From Bacteroidota bacterium (GTDB lineage: Bacteria; Bacteroidota; Ignavibacteria; Ignavibacteriales; Melioribacteraceae), in NCBI GenBank assembly GCA_021812705.1, contig JAKAMT010000013.1, positions 1 to 34,987 of the forward strand: 34,987 nucleotides of DNA, read 5' to 3'. Numbering within the stretch: the stretch's first letter is position 1; each line of letters starts with the position of its first letter. Below the pieces are notes generated by a model that saw only the letters and a list, made by a program, of their open reading frames with translations, did not search any database and was not told where the DNA came from. Shown here piece after piece: positions 13,565 to 34,922 of this stretch. The position numbers and the translations under genes are program-made.

Positions 13565-13709
13565 TTTTATTAAAAATATTGTCATTTTGTTGCAGAACAC
13601 ATCAATACAACGAGCACGATTTTTGATTAGAAAAAGTTGTGATTTTTCTATATGTTTTAGCAGAACTAATAGATACGGTCTTCAAAAGAAAGGAATAATC
13701 CGGCTCCTT

Positions 13710-14192
13710 ATGGGATCATCTCAAATGATAATGCTTATAGGAGGGTTGCTTTTATTGACAGCGCTCTCTGCAACTTTTTACAGCTCATTCAGAGGCAAGT
13801 CTGATGTGGAAGTTTATAATCAGTCGCTGGTCACCGGAACGGGTCTGGCACAATCTCTTATTGATGAGATCTCCACAAAATCGTTTGATGCGAAGACTGC
13901 ACTTAAAAGTTATACAACTCCGGATTCTCTTACATCTCCGGGTTCATTGGGACCGGAATCGGGCGAAACGTCGGCTTCACAATTTAATGATGTCGATGAT
14001 TACAATAATTACGTTCGGCAAGATACCCTGGTGATGGGAGTCTTTACTTCGAAAGTAAAAGTAAAATATGCGCAGAGAATGAATCCGAATCAGTACAGCT
14101 CTGTCAGAACTTTTTCGAAGCGGATCGACATATATGTAACCAATACTTATCTTCCCGATACACTTAAGATGAATTATATAATTACTTACTAA
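13710..14192 (+). CDS. Small pilin-like protein 1 of a three-gene cluster
   Basis: A 160-residue protein not assigned to a named family. It begins Met-Gly followed by a polar SSQ and one strongly hydrophobic helix (about 6-22), then a soluble part rich in Ser, Thr, Asp and Tyr with a mixed beta-type pattern (VFTSKVKVKYAQR; FSKRIDIYVTNTYL). This architecture resembles type IV pilin or pseudopilin subunits, where the helix sits in the membrane before assembly. The canonical prepilin glutamate five residues after the cleavage site is absent. ATG 13710 was chosen because the upstream open frame (to 13587) is not protein-like; GAAAGGA lies rather far upstream. The next gene begins 13 bases after the stop, so this heads an operon. 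Confidence 0.7.
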   Translation: MGSSQMIMLIGGLLLLTALSATFYSSFRGKSDVEVYNQSLVTGTGLAQSLIDEISTKSFDAKTALKSYTTPDSLTSPGSLGPESGETSASQFNDVDDYNNYVRQDTLVMGVFTSKVKVKYAQRMNPNQYSSVRTFSKRIDIYVTNTYLPDTLKMNYIITY

Positions 14193-14205
14193 AGATCAGA
14201 AAAGT

Positions 14206-14799
14206 ATGGGCCAGCTTTTAGAGTTAATAGGTGCATCAATAATCGGCGCTATGATAATGCTGATCGGCATTGGTTTGAATTTTCAGATCAACGAATCTTC
14301 CCGGGAAATTTTTCAGAACACATATAATCAGCGCGCGGCAATTACATCCGGACAGGTAATTGAATATGATTTTTACAAAGCCGGGTATAAAGCAACAAGC
14401 GAAAAATTAATTCAGGCAGATTCAAGCACGATTAAATTCAAATCGGATATTGATGATAACGGGACCGTAGACACTGTTTACTACTATCTGGGCTCGAAAG
14501 ACAGTTTAAAGAGCACAACAAATCCGAACGACAAAAAATTGTTTCGTAAAATTAACAGCCAGACGGCAAATACCGTGGCTCTAGTGACACGATTTCTTTT
14601 GACATATAAAGATTCAATCGGCAATACTCTTTCTTATTCAAGTTTAACCAATGCGGCAACACGCGCAAAGGTGAGGTCCATACGGGTCTATATCAAGACA
14701 GAGCTTCCGGATCCGGTTTACACAACCAGCAACAGAGATATAAAATCATACAATCCTCTTGACTGGAAAAAAACTATAAGACCAAAAAATTTATTTTAG
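14206..14799 (+). CDS. Small pilin-like protein 2
   Basis: A 197-residue protein starting MGQLLELIGASIIGAMIML, a hydrophobic helix to about residue 25, followed by a long soluble domain. Gly2 followed by QLLEL resembles a very short prepilin leader with an acidic residue near position +4/+5, though the usual basic leader is absent. The soluble part contains SDIDDNGTVDTVYYYLG, which looks like an acidic calcium-type loop, and repeated beta-strand patterns, as in PilW-like minor pilins. No catalytic motif is seen. It sits 13 bases after protein 1 and seven bases before protein 3. A minor-pilin or pseudopilin role is inference from topology and gene order. Confidence 0.7.
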   Translation: MGQLLELIGASIIGAMIMLIGIGLNFQINESSREIFQNTYNQRAAITSGQVIEYDFYKAGYKATSEKLIQADSSTIKFKSDIDDNGTVDTVYYYLGSKDSLKSTTNPNDKKLFRKINSQTANTVALVTRFLLTYKDSIGNTLSYSSLTNAATRAKVRSIRVYIKTELPDPVYTTSNRDIKSYNPLDWKKTIRPKNLF

Positions 14800-14806
14800 G
14801 TAATTG

Positions 14807-15928
14807 ATGGGCAAAGCGGTTTTAATATTTGTTCTTGGCAGTGTGGTCATGTTCACAGTTATAAATGTTAATATGAACACCAGCGTCGGCGCCGCGTCTT
14901 CGGAAGCATTTACGCGCTTCAACCAAACAAACGCCAGGAATGTTGCAAACAGCGTTGCAGAAATGCTTCTCTCCAGAATCGCGGATTCAACCACGTACCG
15001 GGCATCTTCATCTCAGACTATGAACAATATTTTTAACGCGGCCGGATCCGCTCTATACAGAGTTGTTGATACCACCGTTGGAGGGAAAAATCTAATAAAG
15101 GTTGCCGTAAAGGGAAAGTATATGGATGCGGTTGCTTATGTAAATGTTTATGCAACAGTGGCATCTAACGGATACATTCCCTCAACGGTTAAAGGAGCAA
15201 TTTCAACAAACAACCCTGTTTCCACGGGCGGCGGATTGGTTGTTGACGGAAGGGACCATGACCTCAACGGGAATCTTATAGCGGGAACAACAGGCACCCT
15301 AGGCATCTGGACAACAGAAGGACTTGCGCAAGGAGGAACTTCTTTTATAGGAGGAACAACCTCGGGAACAAATTACGCCCCCGCAAGCCCCGCGCCTGCA
15401 GGAACAGTAAGCACAGATCAGACTTTTCCGGGCGGATATCCCAATACACCGGACAGCCTTCTAGGAGGAACGGCAAAGGGTTTTCCTCCCGGCAAATTAA
15501 AAAGCTTAGCCCAGAGCGGCATCGCAGGAAGCCAGTACACGACAAATCCAAACACTCTTACTCATCCATTTAGAGGGGTTACATACGTTGAATTGCCTTC
15601 CGGTTCATCTTGGATCTCATCAAATATTGACGGCTCCGGAATTTTAATTATTCACAACACTTCCACAAATGCGATAATTAAAAACGAAAATCTTGGAGTG
15701 TTTAAAGGTTTGATTATAGCCGATGATATTATTCATATCCACACGGAAATCATAGGTGCGGTAATTGGTTTATCGCCGCATCCCTCGGAGGGAAACAGTA
15801 TAGGTAACGGCAGCGGTGAAGTTTATTATTCAAGCCAGGCAATTTCCGACGCATTAGGATCGATTATAAATTCCGGGAATTACGGTTTTGCAAAGCACAG
15901 GCTGAACATTATCAATTGGCTGGAATAA
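14807..15928 (+). CDS. Larger pilin-like protein 3 (PilX-like architecture)
   Basis: A 373-residue protein starting Met-Gly-Lys with a hydrophobic helix (about 4-23) and then an amphipathic, Asn/Ala-rich helix (FTRFNQTNARNVANSVAEML), as in PilX-type minor pilins that continue the N-terminal helix into the periplasm. Residues about 125-373 are Gly/Ser/Thr-rich and probably beta-helical (GGLVVDGRDHDLNGNLIAG; GSGILIIHNTSTNAIIKNENLGVFKGLIIADD), compatible with a surface-exposed tip or adhesin domain. ATG 14807 is preferred over the adjacent in-frame TTG 14804. It is the last gene of the trio and converges on the TIGR01777 gene. No named family is claimed with certainty. Confidence 0.72.
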   Translation: MGKAVLIFVLGSVVMFTVINVNMNTSVGAASSEAFTRFNQTNARNVANSVAEMLLSRIADSTTYRASSSQTMNNIFNAAGSALYRVVDTTVGGKNLIKVAVKGKYMDAVAYVNVYATVASNGYIPSTVKGAISTNNPVSTGGGLVVDGRDHDLNGNLIAGTTGTLGIWTTEGLAQGGTSFIGGTTSGTNYAPASPAPAGTVSTDQTFPGGYPNTPDSLLGGTAKGFPPGKLKSLAQSGIAGSQYTTNPNTLTHPFRGVTYVELPSGSSWISSNIDGSGILIIHNTSTNAIIKNENLGVFKGLIIADDIIHIHTEIIGAVIGLSPHPSEGNSIGNGSGEVYYSSQAISDALGSIINSGNYGFAKHRLNIINWLE

Positions 15929-22144: not shown

Positions 22145-24601
22145 ATGAGACGTAAAATCAAAACTGAATTAAAAAAGTCCGGAATGGAATCAAAGAGAAA
22201 GAAAGCTCCCGTTAAATCCGCGAGGAAGGAAATTCTGCCACCAAAAGAGAACCCGAATTTTGAAGCGAATTTCAAAGCTGTAATAGAGAATGCGGGGATT
22301 GGAATCGCTGTAATTTCGAAAGATGGCAAAATCTCGATAGCTAATTCTGCCCTTTCGAAAATGCTCGGCTACTCTCCCAAAGAATCGCTCCGCCTATCTC
22401 TGCGCAAACTTTCTCATCCCGGAGACTTTGCCGCCGTGGTTCAAATTTTCCGCGATGTAATGAGAGGGAAAAAATCCAAATTCCAGACGGAAGAAAGATT
22501 TTTAACCAAATCCGGCGAAGTAAGAAATGCAAAACTTACTGTGTCGGCCGTTGATGATAAGAAGACTAAATCAAAAAATATTATTGTAATCGTAGAAGAT
22601 ATTACAGATCAGAAGAAAATTTCGGAAACATTTGAGAAAGAACAAAATCTTTTTACAAAACTTTTGGAACTGCTGCCGGAGTCTATATACTTCAAAGATT
22701 TGGAAAGCCGGTTTATTAAGACCAATAACGCGCTTGCTTTAAAACACGGATTCAGATCGCCGGATCTTATAATTGGCAAATCAGATAAAGACACATTCGG
22801 TACCGAACATGCAAGCGAAACAAAAATCGACGAACAGAATATTATTAGAACCGGAGAACCAATAATTGGGAAAGAAGAAAAAGAGGATTGGCCAGACGGA
22901 AGGACAACCTGGGGCTTGACCACAAAACTTCCATTATATGATAAGAACAATAAAATTATAGGCACCTTCGGAATAACAAGAGACATTACTCATACAAAGC
23001 AGATGCAGGAATCGCTTCATGAAAGCGAACAAATTTATCATTCCTTATTCGACGGCTCCGACGATGGAATGCTCCTCATCTCGAGTGGAAAAATTATCGA
23101 CTGCAATCAGGCGTTGCAGGACATTTTTAAATACGACCGCGAATCTATTCTTGGAAAAACACCAGCTTATTTTTCGCCGGAATTTCAGCCGGACGGAAAA
23201 TCTTCTCTCGAAGAATCGCATGTTAAAATGGATCTCACTTTAGTAGGACTTCCGCAGAGGTTTTACTGGAGACACAAAAGAAAAGACGGTTCATTCGTAG
23301 ATTGCGACATATCTTTGAGAACGCTGATTATTTCGGGGAAAAAAATTATTCACGGCACTGTACGTGATATTACCGAAATAAAACGCGCCGAAAAATTCAG
23401 ACAAATACTGTACGACATTTCCGAAACTGTATATACTGCGCCAGACATGGACTCTATGTACAGACAAATTCACGAAAAAGTTGCACAGTTAGTCCCCGTT
23501 AAAAATATTTATATCGCTCTTTTTGACGAAAAGACAGATATGATCTCCTTCCCTTATTTTGTTGATGAATTCGATCCTCCTCAAAAGCCCAAAAAACTTG
23601 GTACCGGACTAACGGAATATATTCTTAGGAAGGGAGAGGCAGAATTAATAAACGCTCAAAGAGACCTTGATTTAAGGAGGTCCGGCGAAGTGGAACTTAT
23701 TGGCGAACCGGCGGCAATCTGGCTTGGTGTACCGCTTAAAGTTTATGGAAAAACTATAGGCGTTATTGTTGTTCAGGATTATGAAGACGAAAACGCATAC
23801 GGTGAAGAAGAGATGCAGGTGCTTATATTTGTTTCAGAACAAATTGCACATGCTATTGAAAGAAAAAGAGCATCGGAGTCCATAAAAACATATGCCGAGG
23901 AATTGAAACAGCTAAACAACACAAAAGATAAATTCTTCTCGATAATAGCACACGATTTAAGAAATCCATTTATTACTATTTTAGGTTTTTCTGATCTTCT
24001 GGTTTCGGACTATGAGGATTTATCGGATGAAGAAAAATTATTTTATATCTCGGAAATGAAAAAATCTGCCGAGACATCTCACAATTTGCTCCAGAACCTT
24101 CTCCAATGGTCGCGCTCTCAAACCGGAAGAATTGAATACAATCCGGCGGCACTGAATCTTGCAGAGTTAGTATTAAGCAACGTCAATCTTCTTAATCCGC
24201 ATGCATCCAGAAAGAATATTACCATCCGGTCGTCGGTTCCCGAAAATCTGAGCATTACAGCCGACGAGGATATGCTGAATACGATTATGCGCAATCTTAT
24301 AACTAACGCCATAAAATTCACAGAAACAAACGGAAGAATAGATATCAACTGCGGGGAGGAACAGGATAAAATTACGGTTTGTGTAGCCGATACGGGCGTT
24401 GGAATGAGCGCATCCGTAAAAGAAAAATTATTCAAAGCAGATGAGACACGTTCAACCGCAGGGACGGCACAGGAATCCGGAACGGGACTGGGATTAATAC
24501 TTTGCAAAGAATTTGTTGAAAAACACGGCGGTAATATTACAGTTGAAAGCGAGATTGGAAAGGGGAGTAAATTCTGTTTCTCGCTTCCCAAAACCGTTTA
24601 A
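22145..24601 (+). CDS. Soluble PAS-PAS-PAS-GAF sensor histidine kinase
   Basis: An 818-residue kinase with no transmembrane segment, so a cytoplasmic sensor. The order is: a basic N-terminal tail, PAS at about 40-155, PAS at about 165-283 (with a P-x-SIYFKDLESRF pattern), PAS at about 293-413, GAF at about 420-575, then HisKA with the phospho-accepting H603 in FFSIIAHDLRNPF. The HATPase domain follows, with N717/N721 in the N box, DTGVGM at 749-754 and GTGLGL at 779-784. All catalytic elements look intact. The ligand or cofactor of the PAS and GAF domains is not evident. No regulator of matching type is adjacent, because the next gene is another kinase, so this may be an orphan or share the downstream receivers. 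Confidence 0.92.
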   Translation: MRRKIKTELKKSGMESKRKKAPVKSARKEILPPKENPNFEANFKAVIENAGIGIAVISKDGKISIANSALSKMLGYSPKESLRLSLRKLSHPGDFAAVVQIFRDVMRGKKSKFQTEERFLTKSGEVRNAKLTVSAVDDKKTKSKNIIVIVEDITDQKKISETFEKEQNLFTKLLELLPESIYFKDLESRFIKTNNALALKHGFRSPDLIIGKSDKDTFGTEHASETKIDEQNIIRTGEPIIGKEEKEDWPDGRTTWGLTTKLPLYDKNNKIIGTFGITRDITHTKQMQESLHESEQIYHSLFDGSDDGMLLISSGKIIDCNQALQDIFKYDRESILGKTPAYFSPEFQPDGKSSLEESHVKMDLTLVGLPQRFYWRHKRKDGSFVDCDISLRTLIISGKKIIHGTVRDITEIKRAEKFRQILYDISETVYTAPDMDSMYRQIHEKVAQLVPVKNIYIALFDEKTDMISFPYFVDEFDPPQKPKKLGTGLTEYILRKGEAELINAQRDLDLRRSGEVELIGEPAAIWLGVPLKVYGKTIGVIVVQDYEDENAYGEEEMQVLIFVSEQIAHAIERKRASESIKTYAEELKQLNNTKDKFFSIIAHDLRNPFITILGFSDLLVSDYEDLSDEEKLFYISEMKKSAETSHNLLQNLLQWSRSQTGRIEYNPAALNLAELVLSNVNLLNPHASRKNITIRSSVPENLSITADEDMLNTIMRNLITNAIKFTETNGRIDINCGEEQDKITVCVADTGVGMSASVKEKLFKADETRSTAGTAQESGTGLGLILCKEFVEKHGGNITVESEIGKGSKFCFSLPKTV

Positions 24602-24669
24602 AGAGCAACGGATTTTCGAGTTGTTTTTTTTATCCGCAGAATATTATTTTTTAAAAAGCAGACTGACCG

Positions 24670-27132
24670 ATGCCCGACAAAAAAAAATTATTTCGCAATA
24701 CTGTTTTAACTAACAGTCCTCTTAAAATAGTTCTTGTGTATTGTGTCTTCAGTCTATTGTGGATCCTTTTTTCCGACGATCTAATGTTTTCAATTTTTGC
24801 CACTCTGCGCGCTCATAAAATTATTTCTCTTTTAAAAGGCTGGTTCTTCGTCATTGTTACATCTCTTCTTCTTTACCGGTTAATTTCTTCTGCCATTCGC
24901 AAAACTATAGATGCCGAAGAAAAGCTGTTGGCGCTTGAAAAATACTCGCGAAATTTATTTGATAAATCGTCAATGGGATTGGCGTTAACCGCTTTCGACG
25001 GAAAATTTGTTGACGTCAATTATGCGTTCGCCGAAATAACCGGAAGAAGCGTTGAAGATTTTTTGAAAATAAATTCCGGTGATATTACACCCAAAAAATA
25101 TTCCTCGCTGGAAAAAGAGATAGTTGCCCTGCTCATGAAAAACGGCCACTACGGTCCTATTGAGAAAGAGTACATTCACAAAAAAGGACACCTGGTGCCT
25201 GTCAGGCTTCAAGGCTCACTGATTGAGAGAGGCGGTGAAAAATTCATCTGGTCCAGCGTAGAGAACATTACGGAGCAAAAAAAATCGGAAGAGCTTTTGA
25301 GCAGAACCCAAAAATTTTTGAATGAATTCATGAATCATACACCGGCGGTTGTCTATGCAGCAGACGCCGATGGAAAAATTATTTTAACGAATAACCAGTT
25401 TGAAAGCGTAACCGGTTCGGTAAAAGAAAAGATTATAGGCAGCACGCGGGAATCATTTTTGCCTCCGGAAATTGCCGCCGAGCACAGGGCAAATGATTTA
25501 AATGTAATCCGGTCGAAAGAGGCCATTACTATTGAAGAGACAAATATTCAGCAGGACGGGCTTCATTACTACATTTCATCCAAATTCCCGCTGACGGACA
25601 GCAAAGGGAATGTGTATGCCGTAGGCGGTATTTCCACGGAAATTACTGAACGAAGAAAATCCGAGGAGGCCTTAAAACTTTCGGAAGAAAAATTTCACAA
25701 GGCGTTCCAAAATTCGCCCGATGCCATTATGATCTCCCGGATGTCGGATGGCGTTTTTTATGAGGTGAATGAAAACTTTTATAAAATTTCCGGATATACC
25801 CGCAATGAAGTAATAGGTCATTCATCAACCGAAATTAATTTTTGGCTCTCGCCCGAGGAGCGGAACAATTATGTTTCCGGACTTGTGCAGAATGGGCGGG
25901 TGGAAAACATGGAAGTCTCTTTTAGAACCAAAGATGGAAGTATAAAAGATTTTGTTCTTTCGGGCGAGGCAATTGACCTGAATGGAGAGAAATACATTAT
26001 TGGTACTGTCAGGGATGTCACTGAGAAAAAGTTAACAGACCAGATTCTTAAAGAGAGCGAAGAAAAATTCCGTAAAATGGTTGAAGAATTGCCAAGCGGT
26101 ATTATTATCATCAATCACGAAGGTACAATAATAGGATGGAATAGAGCGCAGGAAAAAATAACAGGTATTACAAGCGAAAATGCTATCGGCAAAACTAGCT
26201 GGGATTTGCAATTGTCTTTGATGCCTAATTCTATTGTGACGGAAGATCTTAGAAATTATACAAAAAAAGCCATTCTCGAACTCTTTACGGAGATTCCCAA
26301 AGATTACCTTAGGCTTCCGATTGAAAGAAAAGTTCAGCGCAGAGACGGTCGGCTGGTTACTATTGAGTCCATTGTTTTTATTTACAAAACAAAAACCGAT
26401 TCCATTGCAGTAACAATATCAACAGATATTACCGATAGAAAAAAAATAGAAGAAGATTTAAGGAAATCTCATTCGCAATTAAGAGCTCTAACTTCGCACA
26501 TCGAAAAAATCATAGAAGAGGAACGCGCCTCCATTGCAAGAGAGATGCACGACGAGCTGGGACAAATACTTACATCTCTAAAGATGAATATCGCATTTAT
26601 CAGAAAAGAGATTGAATCCGGCATATTGGAATCGAAACGGGAACATATGCTGAGTGAATTAATCGAGATCAATTTAAAGATAGATACCGCCGTCGCCCAA
26701 GTAAGAAGGCTTATTACACAACTTAGACCCGATATACTTGATAAATTGGGATTGCTGGCAGCTCTGGAATGGTATGCGGAAGAATTTAGCAAATCCTCAA
26801 AAATTAAGTGTGTCTTGAATTCAGAATTTGAAGAGCTCTCAGTAAACGCAGATAAAGATTTGGCAATTTTCAGAATTGTTCAGGAAGCAATGACAAACAT
26901 ACTAAAATATGCCAACGCAAAAATTGTAACTATCACTCTAAAAAAAGAGGGAGACGTTCTTCTGGTTGAAATTAAAGATGACGGCAGAGGGATCTCCGAC
27001 CTTGAGATCAAGGGGGATAAATCATTCGGGCTGCTTGGAATGAGAGAGCGTGCGGTTTTGATTGGCGGCACTATAGACATATACGGAGAATCAGGCAAAG
27101 GAACCACCGTTAAACTGAGAGTAAAACTTTAA
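24670..27132 (+). CDS. Membrane-bound multi-PAS histidine kinase of the NarX/HisKA_3 type
   Basis: An 820-residue kinase. Two transmembrane helices (about 17-35 and 53-72) enclose only a short loop, so sensing is probably cytoplasmic. Four PAS domains follow (about 88-203, 213-330, 337-453, 463-592). The HisKA_3 dimerisation region has EEERASIAREMHDELGQ with H627, and the ATPase domain has the N box around N743, DDGRGISD and FGLLGMRER typical of LuxR/NarL-partner kinases. This type phosphorylates NarL-family regulators, and one is encoded 76 bases downstream. The start at 24670 lacks a clear Shine-Dalgarno, and the 13 bases AGACTGACCGATG at its start recur at the nitroreductase gene start (31520). 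Confidence 0.93.
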   Translation: MPDKKKLFRNTVLTNSPLKIVLVYCVFSLLWILFSDDLMFSIFATLRAHKIISLLKGWFFVIVTSLLLYRLISSAIRKTIDAEEKLLALEKYSRNLFDKSSMGLALTAFDGKFVDVNYAFAEITGRSVEDFLKINSGDITPKKYSSLEKEIVALLMKNGHYGPIEKEYIHKKGHLVPVRLQGSLIERGGEKFIWSSVENITEQKKSEELLSRTQKFLNEFMNHTPAVVYAADADGKIILTNNQFESVTGSVKEKIIGSTRESFLPPEIAAEHRANDLNVIRSKEAITIEETNIQQDGLHYYISSKFPLTDSKGNVYAVGGISTEITERRKSEEALKLSEEKFHKAFQNSPDAIMISRMSDGVFYEVNENFYKISGYTRNEVIGHSSTEINFWLSPEERNNYVSGLVQNGRVENMEVSFRTKDGSIKDFVLSGEAIDLNGEKYIIGTVRDVTEKKLTDQILKESEEKFRKMVEELPSGIIIINHEGTIIGWNRAQEKITGITSENAIGKTSWDLQLSLMPNSIVTEDLRNYTKKAILELFTEIPKDYLRLPIERKVQRRDGRLVTIESIVFIYKTKTDSIAVTISTDITDRKKIEEDLRKSHSQLRALTSHIEKIIEEERASIAREMHDELGQILTSLKMNIAFIRKEIESGILESKREHMLSELIEINLKIDTAVAQVRRLITQLRPDILDKLGLLAALEWYAEEFSKSSKIKCVLNSEFEELSVNADKDLAIFRIVQEAMTNILKYANAKIVTITLKKEGDVLLVEIKDDGRGISDLEIKGDKSFGLLGMRERAVLIGGTIDIYGESGKGTTVKLRVKL

Positions 27133-27208
27133 GTTTGTTTTGCGCGTGGAACGTGTGGATTTTTGTTTCTTTCGAATATAAATTACTAGGGAATTAACAG
27201 CACCGGTT

Positions 27209-27841
27209 ATGATAAAAGTATTTATTGCAGATGATCATGCGCTTATCCGGGAAGGTGTAAAAAATCTGGTAAGCCAATCAAATGAGATACAGATAGTTGG
27301 TGAAACCGCAAGCGCTGTTTCATTAATCGAATCGCTGCGCAAAGTGAAATGCGATGTGCTGATTCTTGACCTGTCTATGCCCGGAAAACACGGCTTGGAC
27401 CTGCTGAAAGAAATTAAAATCATTTTTCGCGATCTCAAAATTTTGATAATGACTATGCTGCCGGAGGATCAGTTCGCAAAAAGAACTTTCAAAGCCGGTG
27501 CCGCGGGGTATCTTTCCAAAGAAAGCGCCCCGGATGAACTTATAAAAGCGATTATAAGAATCGCATCGGGTAAAAAATATATAACGCCGTCCCTGGCGGA
27601 ACTGCTTGCGAATGATCTGGACGGAGACTCGGAAAAACCGGTGCACGATCTGCTTTCCGACAGAGAATTTCAGATAATGAAAATGATTGCAGCCGGAAAG
27701 TCGCAAACCGAAATAGCGAACGAGCTTTCAATCGGCGTCACCACGGTTAATACTTATAGGGGAAGAATATTGAGGAAACTGGACCTTGGCTCAAACGCCG
27801 AACTTATCCATTTTGCCTATCGGAACCATCTAATCAAATAA
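27209..27841 (+). CDS. NarL/FixJ-family response regulator
   Basis: A 210-residue two-domain regulator. The receiver (1-120) has the acidic pair D8-D9, the phospho-acceptor D54 in LILDLSMPG, T81 in MTM and K103 in YLSKES. The C-terminal LuxR-type helix-turn-helix spans about 145-208 (LSDREFQIMKMIAAGKSQTE onwards), with the typical conserved Glu and recognition helix containing TTVNTYRGRI. It acts as a DNA-binding transcription factor after phosphorylation. It is almost certainly the partner of the HisKA_3 kinase just upstream; target promoters are not identifiable here. A good terminator follows seven bases after the stop. Confidence 0.96.
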   Translation: MIKVFIADDHALIREGVKNLVSQSNEIQIVGETASAVSLIESLRKVKCDVLILDLSMPGKHGLDLLKEIKIIFRDLKILIMTMLPEDQFAKRTFKAGAAGYLSKESAPDELIKAIIRIASGKKYITPSLAELLANDLDGDSEKPVHDLLSDREFQIMKMIAAGKSQTEIANELSIGVTTVNTYRGRILRKLDLGSNAELIHFAYRNHLIK

Positions 27842-27847
27842 AAATCC

Positions 27848-27871
27848 GTAGTATTTATACTACATTTTTTT
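27848..27871 (+). terminator. Intrinsic terminator after the NarL-type regulator
   Basis: GTAGTAT (27848-27854) and ATACTAC (27857-27863) form a perfect hairpin, followed after one A by T27865-27871. It separates the HisKA_3/NarL pair from the downstream receiver/kinase pair. Confidence 0.85.
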
Positions 27872-28015
27872 CATAACTATTCCTATATAGACAAAAATAT
27901 ATCTCTCCTATCTTTCATCAATAAATATTCCGGATACACTACTATTCCCTATGATTTTGGTTTAACCGAAGTTCAGAACAAAAAAAATTCATGATAAATT
28001 TTTGGAATAAATAAT

Positions 28016-28408
28016 ATGAGCATGGAAAATCTGAACACATCCCGCAAAAGACTTCTGATAGTAGACGACTCACTTGAAATTAGAAAAGGTCTTATCCGCT
28101 TCATCTCCGAAATACCGACTGTTAATATTGTAGGCGAAGCCGGCGATGCAGAGACAGCTTTAACTTTAGTGGAGGAATTAAAACCGGACTATGTAACGCT
28201 CGACATCAAGATGCCCGGAGAAGGGGGCATAATTACACTGACGGAGATTAAGAAAAGGCATCCTCAAATAATTGTTATGATGTTGACCAATTTTCCTTTT
28301 GATCACTATAGAAAAGCTTGCAAAAATGCGGGCGCCGATTATTTTTTTGATAAATCGCACGAATTTGAAGAAATGGTTAATACAATCAAAAATTTATCCG
28401 ATAATTAA
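28016..28408 (+). CDS. Stand-alone response regulator receiver protein
   Basis: A 130-residue protein consisting of one receiver domain with no output domain. The acidic pair is D17-D18 (LLIVDDS), the phospho-acceptor is D63 in YVTLDIKMPG, and the switch Thr (MLTN) and Lys (FFDKS) are present, so it should be phosphorylatable. Such proteins work by binding partners or as phosphorelay intermediates in the cytoplasm. Only 18 bases separate it from the large PAS kinase downstream, whose own receiver-like domain has lost the phospho-acceptor, so the two are probably one operon and one functional unit. ATG 28016 is used; a second in-frame ATG is at 28022. Confidence 0.93.
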   Translation: MSMENLNTSRKRLLIVDDSLEIRKGLIRFISEIPTVNIVGEAGDAETALTLVEELKPDYVTLDIKMPGEGGIITLTEIKKRHPQIIVMMLTNFPFDHYRKACKNAGADYFFDKSHEFEEMVNTIKNLSDN

Positions 28409-28426
28409 TTTTAATCTACAGGAAAG

Positions 28427-31400
28427 ATGGAAAAGGAATCAAAAAAAGTGGTGGAAGTTTTAATTATTGCCGACAAACCCGAAGAGCTTTCATCAATAAA
28501 AAAAAGCATGACCAACAATTCAGCGATGAAAATTAATTTACATCATTGCGATGATGTAAACAGTTTGATGCCATTCCTTTCATCCAGATCCGTTTCCCTC
28601 ATTCTTCTCTCCTTAAAATCAGATTCTAAAGAGGAATTGAGCAAAATTGAATTTATAAGTACCATTATTCCTTCATTGCCGATTGTGGCATTAATAGATT
28701 CAGACGATGATGAGTTCGGACTCCGGGTAATAAGCGCCGGAGCTGAAGAATATTTAATCAAGAATAAAATTGAAAAAGAAATTACAGCCAGAGCCTTCCG
28801 CTATGCAATTGAGAGGAAAAAAACATCTTTGCACGCCAGCGAGAGTGAGACCAAGTACAAAGAACTTGTAAATCTCTTGCCTCAGATCGTATTTGAGATG
28901 GACTTAAAAGGAGATATAACATTCGCCAATAATCTCGCATTTGAACTTTTTGGTTTTAGCAGCGAAGATTTTGCCGGACGATTTTCCGCGCTGGATCTTA
29001 TAGCCCCAAAAGATCGGCCCAGGGCTCTTGAGAATATTAAAAGGTCCTTATCCGGCGAAAAAATTAAAAACAACGAATATGAATTGATCGGTAAAAATGG
29101 AAAAACTATTCCCGCACTCATTTACAGTAAAGTGATATTGAGAGAGGGTAAACCCGCCGGATTGAGAGGCGTAATAATTGATATTACCGAACGGAAACAA
29201 GCCGAAAAACAGATACAATTTTCAGAACAGAAATTCAACAAATCCTTTTTTAACTCGCCCATCTCAATGACGCTTCAGGATGAAGACGGTCTATTCATAG
29301 ATGTGAACGATGCGTTTTTAGAAATGACCGGCTACACCCGGGAGGAAATTGTTGGATTTAAAGGACGGGACTTAAATCTCTGGGCAGACATTAACGAAAG
29401 AGAAAAAGCGCAGAGAGAACAGAATGCTACAGATTCATTAAAAAATTATGAGTTTCGTTTCAGAAAAAAATCGGGTGAAATTGGAACCGGAATTTTATGG
29501 ACGGATACATTCATTGTTGATAACGCCAAAACGGTTCTTTCGTCGACATTCGATATAACAGCAAAGAAAAGAGCAGAAGCCGCTTTGCTAAGCAGCGAAT
29601 TCAAATACACTAAAATTTTTAATGATGCTCCAGTTGGAATTTACCAATCAACTCTAGACGGGAAATTTTTACGCGTCAACGACCGGCTGGTTCAAATATT
29701 AGGGTACGGCAGCAAGGAAGAGCTTCTTCAATGCAATCTGGAAAATGACATCTATTTTGATAAGGAGGACCGGTTAAAGAGTATTTATGCGTATCAGAAT
29801 TCAGATGACTTTGCAGACATTGAACTGTGCTGGAAGAAAAAGGATGGCAACCCCGTGTGGGTGCAACTTACAGCAACGGGTTTTAAAGACAATAGCGGGA
29901 ATATTCTATACTTCGACGGTTTCATCAGAGATGTTTCTGAAAAACGAGAAGCCGAATTGAATTTGCGTGAAAACCAAAAATTATTAAGCACCGTCATTCA
30001 AAACATACCCGTCGGAATTTTTCTTCTGGATAACAAAGGTAAAATTGTTCATGCAAACAGCGCGGGTCAGCTTATTTGGGGCGGCGTTAAATATGTCGGC
30101 CCGGATAATTATGATGAATACACAGGGTGGTTTGCTGCCACCGGAGAAAGAATACAAAAAGATCAGTGGGGTGCTGCACGCGCAATTACTAAAGGGGAAC
30201 ATGTAATTAACGAAGAGATTGAGATCGAAACTTTTGAAGGAAAGAAAAAACTTATCTATCACTCCGCAGTGCCGATACTCAATTCCAAAAAAGAAATAAC
30301 CGGGGCTATAGTTGTTAATCAGGATATTACTCAGCAGCGGGTTGCAGACTTACAGGTGAAGCGCCTTTCACGTGCCGTTGAACAAAGCCCCGTTTCAGTT
30401 GTTATAACAGACACATCCGGAATGATTCAATATGTTAATCCTAAATTCGAGAAGGTAACCGGATATACTTTGGCTGAATCGATCGGAAAAAATCCCAGAT
30501 TTTTAAAATCAGGATATACTTCGCCGGCAACATACAAAGAGATGTGGGATACAATAAAAACAGGCAACGAATGGCGTGGGGAATTTCATAATATCAGCAA
30601 AAAGGGAGATAAATTCTGGGAACTCTCCGTAATTTCCCCAATCAGAAATTCCAGCGGAAAAATCACAAACTTCCTTGCGGTGAAAGAAGATATAACCGAA
30701 CAGAAAAAAATGACTCTTGAACTCATCAGCGCCAAAGAAAGAGCAGAACATTCTGATAACTTGAAAACAGAATTTCTGGCGCAGATGTCTCACGAAGTGC
30801 GCACACCGCTGAATGTTCTGCTAAGTTTTTCCACTTATATTAAAGATGAACTCGAGTCGAGACAGCATCTTACTGAAGACCTGAAAGGATATTTTAACAC
30901 GGTCTCCGAAGCAGGAAAAAGAATAATTAGAACTATTGAACTTATTTTGAACATGTCCGATGTAAAATCAGGGAGCTATGCTTATAATCCTGCGAAAACA
31001 GATATAGTCGGAGAAATTTTAAAGCAGGTCTTTTACCAATTTAGTCACATTGCCGAAGAAAAAAGTTTACGGTTCGAATTAATTCAAAACTGCGACATTA
31101 TTTATGCATTTGCCGACCATTATTCCGTTGAACAAATTTTAATTCAACTCATAAGCAATGCCGTAAAATTTACGGATTCAGGACACATTAAAATTTTCGT
31201 CAACAGGTCGGCCGCCGGCAGTTTGGAAATTAAAATTGAAGATACCGGCGTGGGCATAAGTGGTGAATATATGAATAAACTCTACACTCCTTTTTCACAG
31301 GAAGACCAGGGATTCTCCAGAACATTCGAAGGAAACGGATTGGGTCTAGCCCTTGCTAAAAAATATTGTGAACTAAACGGCATCGATATCCACGTTGAAA

Positions 31401-31456
31401 GCGAAAAAGGAAAAGGCACAACTTTCACACTCACCTTTCCTTCACTATCCAACTAA
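28427..31456 (+). CDS. Large histidine kinase: degenerate receiver, five PAS domains, HisKA, HATPase
   Basis: A 1009-residue cytoplasmic kinase. Residues about 8-130 form a receiver-like domain: VLIIADKPEE keeps one of two acidic residues (A15-D16), S62 replaces the phospho-acceptor Asp in LILLSLKS, and K112 of YLIKNK remains. This is a pseudo-receiver. PAS domains lie at about 137-258, 263-383, 388-508, 514-636 and 645-760. HisKA has H789 in FLAQMSHEVRTPLN, and the ATPase domain has N911, DTGVGI (939-944) and GNGLGLALAK (969-978), all intact. No transmembrane segments are seen. The N-terminal receiver is the input end, not a hybrid C-terminal relay. The stand-alone receiver upstream may be its partner. 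Confidence 0.92.
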   Translation: MEKESKKVVEVLIIADKPEELSSIKKSMTNNSAMKINLHHCDDVNSLMPFLSSRSVSLILLSLKSDSKEELSKIEFISTIIPSLPIVALIDSDDDEFGLRVISAGAEEYLIKNKIEKEITARAFRYAIERKKTSLHASESETKYKELVNLLPQIVFEMDLKGDITFANNLAFELFGFSSEDFAGRFSALDLIAPKDRPRALENIKRSLSGEKIKNNEYELIGKNGKTIPALIYSKVILREGKPAGLRGVIIDITERKQAEKQIQFSEQKFNKSFFNSPISMTLQDEDGLFIDVNDAFLEMTGYTREEIVGFKGRDLNLWADINEREKAQREQNATDSLKNYEFRFRKKSGEIGTGILWTDTFIVDNAKTVLSSTFDITAKKRAEAALLSSEFKYTKIFNDAPVGIYQSTLDGKFLRVNDRLVQILGYGSKEELLQCNLENDIYFDKEDRLKSIYAYQNSDDFADIELCWKKKDGNPVWVQLTATGFKDNSGNILYFDGFIRDVSEKREAELNLRENQKLLSTVIQNIPVGIFLLDNKGKIVHANSAGQLIWGGVKYVGPDNYDEYTGWFAATGERIQKDQWGAARAITKGEHVINEEIEIETFEGKKKLIYHSAVPILNSKKEITGAIVVNQDITQQRVADLQVKRLSRAVEQSPVSVVITDTSGMIQYVNPKFEKVTGYTLAESIGKNPRFLKSGYTSPATYKEMWDTIKTGNEWRGEFHNISKKGDKFWELSVISPIRNSSGKITNFLAVKEDITEQKKMTLELISAKERAEHSDNLKTEFLAQMSHEVRTPLNVLLSFSTYIKDELESRQHLTEDLKGYFNTVSEAGKRIIRTIELILNMSDVKSGSYAYNPAKTDIVGEILKQVFYQFSHIAEEKSLRFELIQNCDIIYAFADHYSVEQILIQLISNAVKFTDSGHIKIFVNRSAAGSLEIKIEDTGVGISGEYMNKLYTPFSQEDQGFSRTFEGNGLGLALAKKYCELNGIDIHVESEKGKGTTFTLTFPSLSN

Positions 31457-31529: not shown

Positions 31530-32198
31530 ATGACACCAAACAAATCCGGACCTATAAACGGTCGTGTAGTATTATCAGAAACTGAATTAATTAATAAGTC
31601 CGCAGATTTTAATTCATTCATGCAGAAACGCAGAAGCGTGCGCTCTTTTTCGGATAAAAATATTTCGCCGGAAATTATTAAAAATTGTATCCGCGCCGCG
31701 GGCTCGGCCCCCAGCGGGGCAAATAAACAACCATGGCAATTCGTAATCATCGGCGACTCAGCACTCAAAAGAAGAATCAGAAAAAAAGCCGAGGAGGAGG
31801 AGAGGAATTTTTATTCCGAACGGGCTCCTCAAAAATGGCTCGATGATCTTAAGCCGCTTGCAACAAATGCCGATAAACCTTTTTTGGAAGAAGCGCCTTA
31901 TCTGTTAGCGGTGTTTGAAAAAAAGTACGAGATGACAGGCGGCATTAAAAACATATCCTATTATTCAAAAGAATCTACCGGTATAGCAACGGGAATTTTA
32001 ATTGCGGCGATACACAACGCCGGACTTTCATGTTTGACTTATACCCCAAGCCGGATGAATTTTCTTAACGAAATATTGAACAGACCCGCGCATGAAAGAC
32101 CTTTTCTGATTTTGGCCGTGGGCTATCCTTCTCCGGAATACATTTATCCTGATATAAAAAGAAAAGGGCTGGACGATATTGCGTTATTTATTTTGTAG
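31530..32198 (+). CDS. Iodotyrosine-deiodinase-like FMN nitroreductase-family protein
   Basis: A 222-residue nitroreductase-fold flavoprotein. FMN-binding elements are KRRSVRSFSD (33-42) and SAPSGANKQPWQF (59-71). The lid region has E91, Y95 and K116, with the spacing (Glu, +4 Tyr, +21 Lys) of the substrate-zwitterion triad that defines iodotyrosine deiodinases. Other family matches are QKWLDDLKPL near 101-110, HNAGL, RPAHERP and VGYPSPE followed by PDIKRKGLDDI. Such enzymes reductively remove halogen from halotyrosines. The physiological substrate in bacteria is unclear. The N-terminal 30 residues also match the family, supporting ATG 31530. No signal peptide, so cytoplasmic. The mu-crystallin-like gene follows after 52 bases. 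Confidence 0.88.
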   Translation: MTPNKSGPINGRVVLSETELINKSADFNSFMQKRRSVRSFSDKNISPEIIKNCIRAAGSAPSGANKQPWQFVIIGDSALKRRIRKKAEEEERNFYSERAPQKWLDDLKPLATNADKPFLEEAPYLLAVFEKKYEMTGGIKNISYYSKESTGIATGILIAAIHNAGLSCLTYTPSRMNFLNEILNRPAHERPFLILAVGYPSPEYIYPDIKRKGLDDIALFIL

Positions 32199-32250: not shown

Positions 32251-33237
32251 ATGACAAAATTAATTTCCAGGGATGAAGTAATTAAACTCCTGAAGATGGC
32301 CGACGCAATTGAAATATTAGAGAAAGCGTTTGCGGATCTTTCCGATGGCAAAGCAGCGTTGCCGCCGCGCACCGCAATTCAAGTACCCGGATATAATGGA
32401 CTTGCGTTGTACATGCCGGGATATATAGAAGGAACCGGGGCTCTCGGAATAAAGATAGTGACGGTGTACAAAGAGAACTCAAAAAAATTCAATCTCCCCA
32501 CAATCCAGGGAACAATAATGCTTTTAGATGAAAAGAAAGGCACGCCCCTGGCAATTATGGATGCCGGATACCTGACGGCAATCAGAACAGGAGGCGTTTC
32601 GGGTCTGGCCACAAGTTTGCTTGCGCGAAAAAATGCTAAAGTTCATTCACTTTTCGGTACAGGCGGAATGGCAAGAGCACATGCGTGGGCAATTGATTCG
32701 GTCCGCGAGATAGAAAAACTTATTATTTTCTCGACAGATCCGCCGGAGGCGAAGAACTCTTTCAAAGACTCTTTGAAAGAAATTTTGAAATGTGAAATCG
32801 TAATTGCAGATAAAGCCGAGGACGCCGCGCGCGAGGCAGATATAATTACACTGATTACAACAGCGAGAAGTCCGGTTATACGCGGAGAATGGATCAAACC
32901 GGGTACTCACATTAACGGCGCCGGTTCGCACGAGCCGGAAGCCAGAGAAATTGACACGGAAACTGTATTGCGTTCAAAAATTGTATGCGATCTTGTGGAG
33001 GCGTGCAAACCGGAAGCGGGAGATTTGATTATCCCGGTAAATGAAAATAAATGGAGCTGGGATAAAGTGCATGCTTCCCTGGGCGACATAATTACAAAGA
33101 AAAAAGAGGGAAGATCAACAGACGAAGAAATTACACTCTTTAAAACAGTCGGCATTGCGATACAGGATGTCTCTGTTGCGCTTCATGTTTTTAATAAAGC
33201 GGTCGAAATGAAGGTAGGTACAGATTACGCTTTTTAA
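32251..33237 (+). CDS. Ornithine cyclodeaminase / mu-crystallin family NAD(P)-dependent enzyme
   Basis: A 328-residue Rossmann-fold protein of the OCD/mu-crystallin family. Visible elements are K68 in ALGIKIVTVY (substrate carboxylate), AIMDAGYLTAIRTGGVSGLAT (101-121), the dinucleotide motif FGTGGMA (135-141), GEWIKPGTHINGAGS (212-226) and the C-terminal FKTVGIAIQDVSVA. The Asp that cyclodeaminases use in the G-x-D-x-PG loop is replaced: here the loop reads GSHEPE with H227. This argues against true ornithine cyclodeaminase and for a ketimine or imine reductase or alanine-dehydrogenase-like role, as in mu-crystallin. It is cytoplasmic and probably co-transcribed with the deiodinase-like gene. 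Its stop codon overlaps that of the convergent outer-membrane gene. Confidence 0.88.
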   Translation: MTKLISRDEVIKLLKMADAIEILEKAFADLSDGKAALPPRTAIQVPGYNGLALYMPGYIEGTGALGIKIVTVYKENSKKFNLPTIQGTIMLLDEKKGTPLAIMDAGYLTAIRTGGVSGLATSLLARKNAKVHSLFGTGGMARAHAWAIDSVREIEKLIIFSTDPPEAKNSFKDSLKEILKCEIVIADKAEDAAREADIITLITTARSPVIRGEWIKPGTHINGAGSHEPEAREIDTETVLRSKIVCDLVEACKPEAGDLIIPVNENKWSWDKVHASLGDIITKKKEGRSTDEEITLFKTVGIAIQDVSVALHVFNKAVEMKVGTDYAF

Positions 33238-34922
33238 ATTTCGAACATCAGCTTCAGATAAGCGTAACTTTGATTTTCGGAAAAGCCGTGAGTTACGGAT
33301 CTCTTCATTATCTCTTTAAAGACAAAATCAAAAACAAACTGGCGCACCGGCTCCAACCGCAAACCGAATGTAATCACATTTGTATTAGTTCTGTCACCGT
33401 CAAGAAACAGAATATGAACCGGATCAACATCAAGCCTGTGGGTAACAAACGGATCCCCGCCGGAATTGAAAACCAAATTTCCCTGTGAATCGTAAATATT
33501 GTCACCGTGTCTAATAAACTGATAATCAAAATTCAAACGGAGCCGTTCGCTGTAATTGTACGAAATGCGGGCAAGTATCTCGTCGGAATTCGGACCTATC
33601 TCGTGGCCCAGAACCTGATTCCATGAGGTGTAGCTGTCCATGTAATTCACATGCGAATAAACATATGGTCTTATTCTTGTGTATTCAAACACAAAAGAGA
33701 GATCGTTCAATGAAAAAGGGGAATACCAAAAAGCGCCAAGCTGATATCCCGTTTTATTAATATAGTTTGAAAGATCCTGAAGATTGCCCAGAGGATCATC
33801 ATCCAGAAAAAATGTTCCCTGAAGTTCCAGTCCCGGAAGAATTCTCGTTTGCATATCAAGCCACAAAACACCGTTGTCTCTATCCTGCAGCGACATCTCT
33901 TCGAATTTATAAAACGCAAAAGGATTGAGGTAGGCAAGATCGAGCCCTCTTCCCGAATAAACCACTCCTTCCCCGAGGCCAAACTCAATTGAATTGCCGA
34001 AATGAAGTTTGAATCTGTTGATTGCAATGAATTTTGTGTAATCCAATGCGCGGTTAACATTAAAATTTCCGACCGTAGAAGCGTGTATGGAAGTGAAATC
34101 AAAAATGCCGTAGTTAAAATTTAATTTTATAAAATCGAGTACCGGATGATTGCCGGACAGAACCAGGTTGCTACCGTATCCGTAGCCGAATTTTATTTTT
34201 TCCCTTCCCATCTGTAGAGAAACGGTCATCTCTTTAACCGGTTCCATTTTATAGCGCAGATATCCTTCGGTAAAATCGTAGTTGTTTATATTCTCGTAAT
34301 CTTCCACATATTTAAAATTATACGAAAGTCGCGGATCGAGAGTGACCGCAAAATTGCGGGATCCGCTTACGCCTCCCTTTTGAACCGTCAAACTGTAGCC
34401 GAGTTTATCGAAGAGAGTTCCGCGGAAACGGAATCCGATATCATATAACTCTGCGTTGTTAATCCTCGGTTTAAAAGACTGCCCGTAATAAACCCTTCCC
34501 AGAATATTCAGATAATAATTCGCGTCTTCGTTTTTAAAGGCGTAGGTATATTTTATTTTATCGGACAAAAAATCCCCACCTTGTTTAGAAAAACCGGCTT
34601 CGCTTCCGAACATCTGAAAAGTATTATTGCTGTCTGCAGCCGTATCGTCGAATTCATCAATGTATTTTTTAAGTGTTTTCTTTTCGGTGCCGCTCAATTG
34701 CGAAGAGTTTTCCGATATCTGATTGAGGTTTTTTAATATTTCTTCCCGGGACATACCGGGATTATCGTTATGAATATATCCCGTAAGGTTTTTCACATTC
34801 ATCTCTTTAATAAAAACATAGACCGGATGATCGATGGGAACATTCTCCTGCTGGGCTTTTAATTGTGAAAAAGCGAAAAGGAGTGAGAAGAGTAAAATTA
34901 TTTTCCGACTGATATTATTCAT
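33234..34922 (-). CDS. Outer-membrane beta-barrel protein, Wzi-like (capsule assembly family)
   Basis: A 562-residue exported protein. Residues 1-23 form a Sec signal (SQLKAQ before the cleavage site). Residues about 25-100 are helical and charged (MSREEILKNLNQISE), as found before the barrel in Wzi-type proteins of Bacteroidetes. The rest alternates amphipathic beta strands ending in aromatic residues, with GREKIKFGYGYGSNLVLSG and HPVLDFIKL near 250-280, a stretch characteristic of the capsule-assembly Wzi family. It is expected to be an 18-strand-type outer-membrane barrel. A role in surface polysaccharide attachment is possible, but no polysaccharide genes are near. The minus-strand start lacks a strong ribosome site. 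Confidence 0.8.
   Translation of the reverse strand: MNNISRKIILLFSLLFAFSQLKAQQENVPIDHPVYVFIKEMNVKNLTGYIHNDNPGMSREEILKNLNQISENSSQLSGTEKKTLKKYIDEFDDTAADSNNTFQMFGSEAGFSKQGGDFLSDKIKYTYAFKNEDANYYLNILGRVYYGQSFKPRINNAELYDIGFRFRGTLFDKLGYSLTVQKGGVSGSRNFAVTLDPRLSYNFKYVEDYENINNYDFTEGYLRYKMEPVKEMTVSLQMGREKIKFGYGYGSNLVLSGNHPVLDFIKLNFNYGIFDFTSIHASTVGNFNVNRALDYTKFIAINRFKLHFGNSIEFGLGEGVVYSGRGLDLAYLNPFAFYKFEEMSLQDRDNGVLWLDMQTRILPGLELQGTFFLDDDPLGNLQDLSNYINKTGYQLGAFWYSPFSLNDLSFVFEYTRIRPYVYSHVNYMDSYTSWNQVLGHEIGPNSDEILARISYNYSERLRLNFDYQFIRHGDNIYDSQGNLVFNSGGDPFVTHRLDVDPVHILFLDGDRTNTNVITFGLRLEPVRQFVFDFVFKEIMKRSVTHGFSENQSYAYLKLMFEI

Follow-up and report, generated by a model that had tools for sequence, protein, structure and literature searches.

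An iodotyrosine deiodinase family gene in a Melioribacteraceae genome and the amino-acid-related genes linked to it among relatives

Iodotyrosine deiodinases (IYDs), known from the thyroid as the enzymes that remove iodine from tyrosine, work with reduced FMN. They place the phenolate of the substrate near the flavin, close a lid by way of a Glu-Tyr-Lys triad, the binding site of the substrate zwitterion, and release halide. Two groups of solved structures frame the family, those of the membrane-anchored enzymes of human and mouse (IYD or DEHAL1; PDB codes 4ttb, 4ttc, 3gb5 and 3gfd) and those of the bacterial enzyme HhIYD from Haliscomenobacter hydrossis (PDB codes 5ko7, 5ko8 and 5krd), together with a shorter IYD of 185-192 amino acids crystallised with L-Tyr (6pz0). 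The biochemistry of these enzymes has been reviewed (PMC5499721), and the family is already known from mammals to bacteria (PMC13078365). No statement on the physiological role of bacterial IYDs was found in the literature searched.

The window, the whole stretch of 34,987 nucleotides that was analysed, belongs to a Melioribacteraceae draft genome of 3.16 Mb in 277 contigs (91% complete). It carries an intact IYD gene whose landmarks are the following:

31530..32198, forward strand: IYD family gene, ATG start, 222 amino acids, no internal stop
31719..31721, forward strand: codon of A64, invariant in 97 of 97 IYD rows
31800..31802, forward strand: codon of E91, first triad residue, aligned to HhIYD and human and mouse IYD
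31812..31814, forward strand: codon of Y95, second triad residue, aligned to the same enzymes
31875..31877, forward strand: codon of K116, third triad residue, aligned to the same enzymes
32043..32045, forward strand: codon of T172, invariant in 97 of 97 IYD rows
32052..32054, forward strand: codon of R175 (CGG), Arg in the window protein alone of 98 rows and Pro in 94

HhIYD is the closest described relative of the window protein, with ~50% identity (51% in one comparison), the same numbering of E91, Y95 and K116, the same fold and no membrane anchor in either protein. The two differ at R175 and Y171 of the window protein, where HhIYD has Pro and His, respectively. Human and mouse IYD are 41-43% identical to the window protein over the structural alignment and share the triad, the equivalents of A64 and T172 and a PDIKRKGLDDI-type carboxyl terminus. 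Unlike them, the window protein lacks an amino-terminal transmembrane anchor, belongs to a bacterial subclade and has no known thyroid-type role. The shorter IYD 6pz0 has the same fold (Z 24.7) and is only ~35% identical, farther than HhIYD.

Searches of the solved structures with phmmer rank the IYDs first: HhIYD 5ko7 (E-value 1.4e-63), the human and mouse enzymes (7e-52 to 5e-50; human IYD 6.7e-52) and 6pz0 (2.3e-28). The first matches that are not IYDs are unassigned nitroreductases from 9e-15 onwards, and BluB is found at 9.4e-4. At these values the resemblance to IYDs exceeds chance. The alignment to 5ko7 has no gap from residue 17 through 116 and beyond, so the triad numbers coincide in the two proteins. 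Both the triad residues and the sequence blocks that the preliminary description had likened to the vertebrate enzyme are present in the translation, the residues at the numbers given there, and the blocks align to human and mouse IYD. The triad, A64, T172, W103 and R34/R35/R38 are invariant in 97 IYD rows, which were drawn from 57 related genomes and from a scan of one genome per species (80 of at least 576 confirmed loci kept). The columns of A64 and T172 are aligned to human IYD and HhIYD. We take A64 to be human A130 by spacing, with a backbone contact to the substrate phenolate, and T172 to be human T239 and HhIYD T173, with a contact to flavin N5. The complete triad is found in none of 13 other proteins of the nitroreductase superfamily, BluB, NfsA, NfsB and RutE included, and its combination with A64 and T172 is likewise confined to the IYDs in this comparison; a fourteenth row, L163, does not count here because it proved to be the L065 IYD under another record.

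The structural alignment with human and Haliscomenobacter IYD that had been proposed earlier was run on an AlphaFold2 model built from 32 sequences (pLDDT 89.7, pTM 0.85). The best match is 5ko8, HhIYD with I-Tyr (Z 27.8, rmsd 1.8 over 216 residues), followed by human 4ttc and mouse 3gfd (both Z 27.6), while BluB reaches Z 19.0 and other nitroreductases 19 and below. Foldseek also places substrate-bound IYDs on top (5ko8, E-value 3.3e-26). The predicted fold agrees with HhIYD in its closed state with ligand bound, and the matched range covers lid residues 91-116, which carry the triad. A shared fold is by itself no proof of activity, though the triad-bearing lid matches in the model.

A tree inferred by maximum likelihood (LG+C20 PMSF, quick search) gathers the IYDs in one clade (SH-aLRT 97) that includes human and mouse IYD and HhIYD and leaves BluB and the E. 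coli proteins NfsA, NfsB and RutE outside. Grouping with BluB or classical nitroreductases had been named as the outcome that would contradict an IYD assignment; the window protein lies inside the IYD clade, where it pairs with that of congener G002 (support 97) on a branch of 0.95 compared to 0.44 for its sister. The outgroup branches are long, so that their relative order means little. The separation of the IYDs also rests on scores and residues, which concur with the tree.

Sequence, tree and predicted structure thus concur with the initial reading of a bacterial iodotyrosine deiodinase homologue. The window protein is a true enzyme of this family, probably with ortho-halotyrosine as the substrate, as expected from its relatives, and with a salvage or detoxification role, as suggested by gene context. 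Dehalogenation of halotyrosine appears to be the best inference for its function. By analogy with the family, E91, Y95 and K116 would hold an L-tyrosine that carries a halogen in the ortho position (iodo-, bromo- or chlorotyrosine), its phenolate would lie against A64 and the ribityl chain of FMN, and reduced FMN would supply it with electrons. T172 would tune the flavin to one-electron chemistry, and the products would be tyrosine and halide.

The alternative that survives best, though we consider it unlikely, is an IYD-fold enzyme for which deiodination is incidental and whose physiological substrate is a different phenolic amino acid or amine with an ortho substituent, for instance 3-nitrotyrosine or a halotyramine. 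The zwitterion site is conserved, yet none of the features tested is diagnostic of iodine. The window protein also carries three residues of its own, L126, R175 and Y206, at positions otherwise conserved in IYDs, and R175 sits beside the T172 loop that presumably contacts the flavin. The unusual R175 and the longer branch could point to a drift in specificity; the three residues may also stem from sequencing error in this draft assembly. No gene of the Trp-halogenase family (PF04820) was detected in the same genome, which gives no sign of own halotyrosine production. A review suggests that iodotyramines are perhaps also deiodinated by IYD (PMC5499721). Against this alternative, the full zwitterion triad favours an amino acid over an amine, as judged from the family, and I-Tyr is the ligand in a crystal structure (5ko8) of HhIYD, the nearest relative that has been characterised.

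The nitroreductase domain (PF00881) of the window protein, one of just two PF00881 proteins of its genome, would also fit a general-purpose NAD(P)H:flavin oxidoreductase or nitroreductase that serves no particular substrate. This is quite improbable for a protein with an invariant triad that is separated from all tested nitroreductases with support 97 and falls far short of the curated score thresholds for every nitroreductase equivalog. For NfsA, NfsB and RutE, also discarded by the tree, the models PRK10765, PRK11053 and PRK05365 give 24.8, 25.8 and 43.6 bits compared to cut-offs of 223, 227 and 152, respectively. Identity as a BluB-like 5,6-dimethylbenzimidazole synthase can be dismissed with near certainty: the fold is shared and TIGR02476 (BluB) is the best NCBIfam match, but at 63.4 bits for a cut-off of 150, and the genuine BluB L159 (297.6 bits) falls outside the IYD clade.

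The enzyme reading preferred here, an IYD active on halotyrosine, gains a setting from the gene that follows 52 bp downstream:

32251..33237, forward strand: ornithine cyclodeaminase (OCD)/mu-crystallin superfamily enzyme, 328 amino acids (PF02423, 3.3e-74)

The PF02423 match is full-length and well over the gathering score (250 bits compared to 24). Within this superfamily the best solved relative is the delta1-pyrroline-2-carboxylate reductase 6t3e (7.1e-85), followed by archaeal alanine dehydrogenase and then mu-crystallin (2i99). The gene product matches 6t3e and 2i99 over the full length and differs from these described proteins in scoring below every NCBIfam equivalog cut-off. It also has a His, present in six orthologues, where archaeal alanine dehydrogenase 1omo has an Asp at the catalytic position. 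The label ornithine cyclodeaminase/alanine dehydrogenase was rejected on these two grounds. The product is probably a ketimine (imine) reductase, preferred over a deaminating enzyme because the alanine dehydrogenase Asp is a His. Ketimines derived from alpha-amino acids are substrates of OCD/mu-crystallin superfamily members (PMC4113996). A promoter and terminator scan found no terminator-like site on the forward strand in the gap between the two genes, with counts near shuffle expectation.

The two genes are adjacent in four genomes (G000, G002, G012 and G030). Orthologues of the reductase-like gene with at least 52% identity occur in six of the 391 genomes of the class searched and all six have an IYD (6/6, p 1.5e-4, shared ancestry ignored). 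The order IYD, Wzi-like gene and MFS gene is kept in G022, where the reductase-like gene is on another contig. A universal pairing was rejected, as none of 80 distant IYD loci has a relative of this gene nearby.

A second recurrent partner in Melioribacteraceae is an APC permease of ~697 amino acids with EIIA and TrkA-C domains. It lies directly 5' of the IYD gene on the same strand in 13 genomes: G023, G025 (IYD cut at the contig end), G028 (permease cut at the contig end), G030, G031, G040 (a different family of the order), G117, G125, G161, G233, G288, G303 and G351. The permease and IYD genes frequently abut or overlap, and overlap of the reading frames by 1-8 bases in L107, L109, L111 and L205 suggests translational coupling in several relatives. 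Permease, IYD and reductase-like gene are consecutive in G030, while permease and reductase-like gene are adjacent in G380 with the IYD elsewhere. A full-length IYD is present in 23 of 35 permease-bearing genomes compared to 69 of the 356 others of the class (Fisher p 2.5e-8, shared ancestry ignored). The family-type permease is absent from the genome of the window at E 1e-60, in an assembly that is 91% complete; this genome has five other APC-permease matches, and of the three linked genes only the IYD and the reductase-like gene adjoin there.

Beyond the class, the genes around IYD are varied and mostly say little. A conserved neighbour was discarded there since no partner recurs strongly, and no general pathway emerges. 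The linkage of permease and reductase-like gene with IYD is lineage-specific. The context supports amino-acid salvage over general flavin reduction.

Other neighbours in the window include PAS-rich sensor histidine kinases and response regulators directly 5' of the IYD gene (22145-31456; reading frames at 22145, 24670, 27209, 28016 and 28427). A related kinase also stands before the IYD gene in G002 and two genes upstream in G022. A Wzi-like capsule-assembly protein (PF14052) is encoded on the reverse strand at 33234-34922, convergent with the reductase-like gene, and a relative of it also adjoins the IYD and reductase-like genes in G002 and the IYD gene in G022. The segment 20497-21942, 9.6 kb upstream of the IYD gene, codes for a pyridoxal-dependent (group II) decarboxylase (PF00282, 1.3e-60), possibly an amino-acid decarboxylase. 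Three successive short reading frames at 13587-15928 have, by eye, the look of prepilin-type or surface proteins.

The scan of one genome per species yielded at least 576 confirmed IYD relatives. The genome of the window carries one IYD. Presence within the class is patchy, as IYD is found in 92 of 391 class genomes and in only 1 of 11 congeners searched. A viral or plasmid origin was set aside: viral contigs gave one partial IYD match and plasmids eight, all below 60% identity. E. coli DNA gave no match. Among other genomes, G041 (another family) has two IYD copies, and in both places (L113 7048-10602 and L114 5624-8540) genes for an M19 membrane dipeptidase and an aldo/keto reductase come immediately before the IYD gene. 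In L079 and L035 the gene directly 3' of IYD encodes an M19 dipeptidase, and a small rhodanese-domain protein is encoded directly 5' of IYD in L105 (7734-8111) and L112 (7854-8231).

The preliminary description had remarked on a tyrosine dehalogenase in such a genome. The family was correctly recognised, but a bacterial IYD is unsurprising given its occurrence in 92 of 391 class genomes and in earlier records (PMC13078365). The protein adds one sequence to a known, widespread family; what is new here is the gene context in Melioribacteraceae, bacterial IYDs themselves being common. The same description saw no obvious role for the enzyme; the linked genes for an amino-acid permease and an imine-reductase-like protein supply part of an answer. 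As suggested by this context, the role may be salvage or detoxification of halogenated, possibly nitrated, tyrosine imported as an amino acid. In the relatives, uptake of the amino acid would fall to the APC permease linked to IYD, and the ketimine-reductase-type enzyme would use a related amino or imino acid as its substrate.

We tentatively propose, as a possibility that at present we would not favour, that in Melioribacteraceae the APC permease, IYD and imine reductase of the mu-crystallin superfamily are encoded in an operon dedicated to halotyrosine import and catabolism. IYD and mu-crystallin are both tied to thyroid-hormone biology in vertebrates. If the proposal is true, the two families would be joined in one operon, and bacterial IYD would gain a physiological role that can be tested genetically. 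The recurrent linkage of permease, IYD and imine reductase directs such tests to concrete partner genes and to a phenotype in growth or transport.
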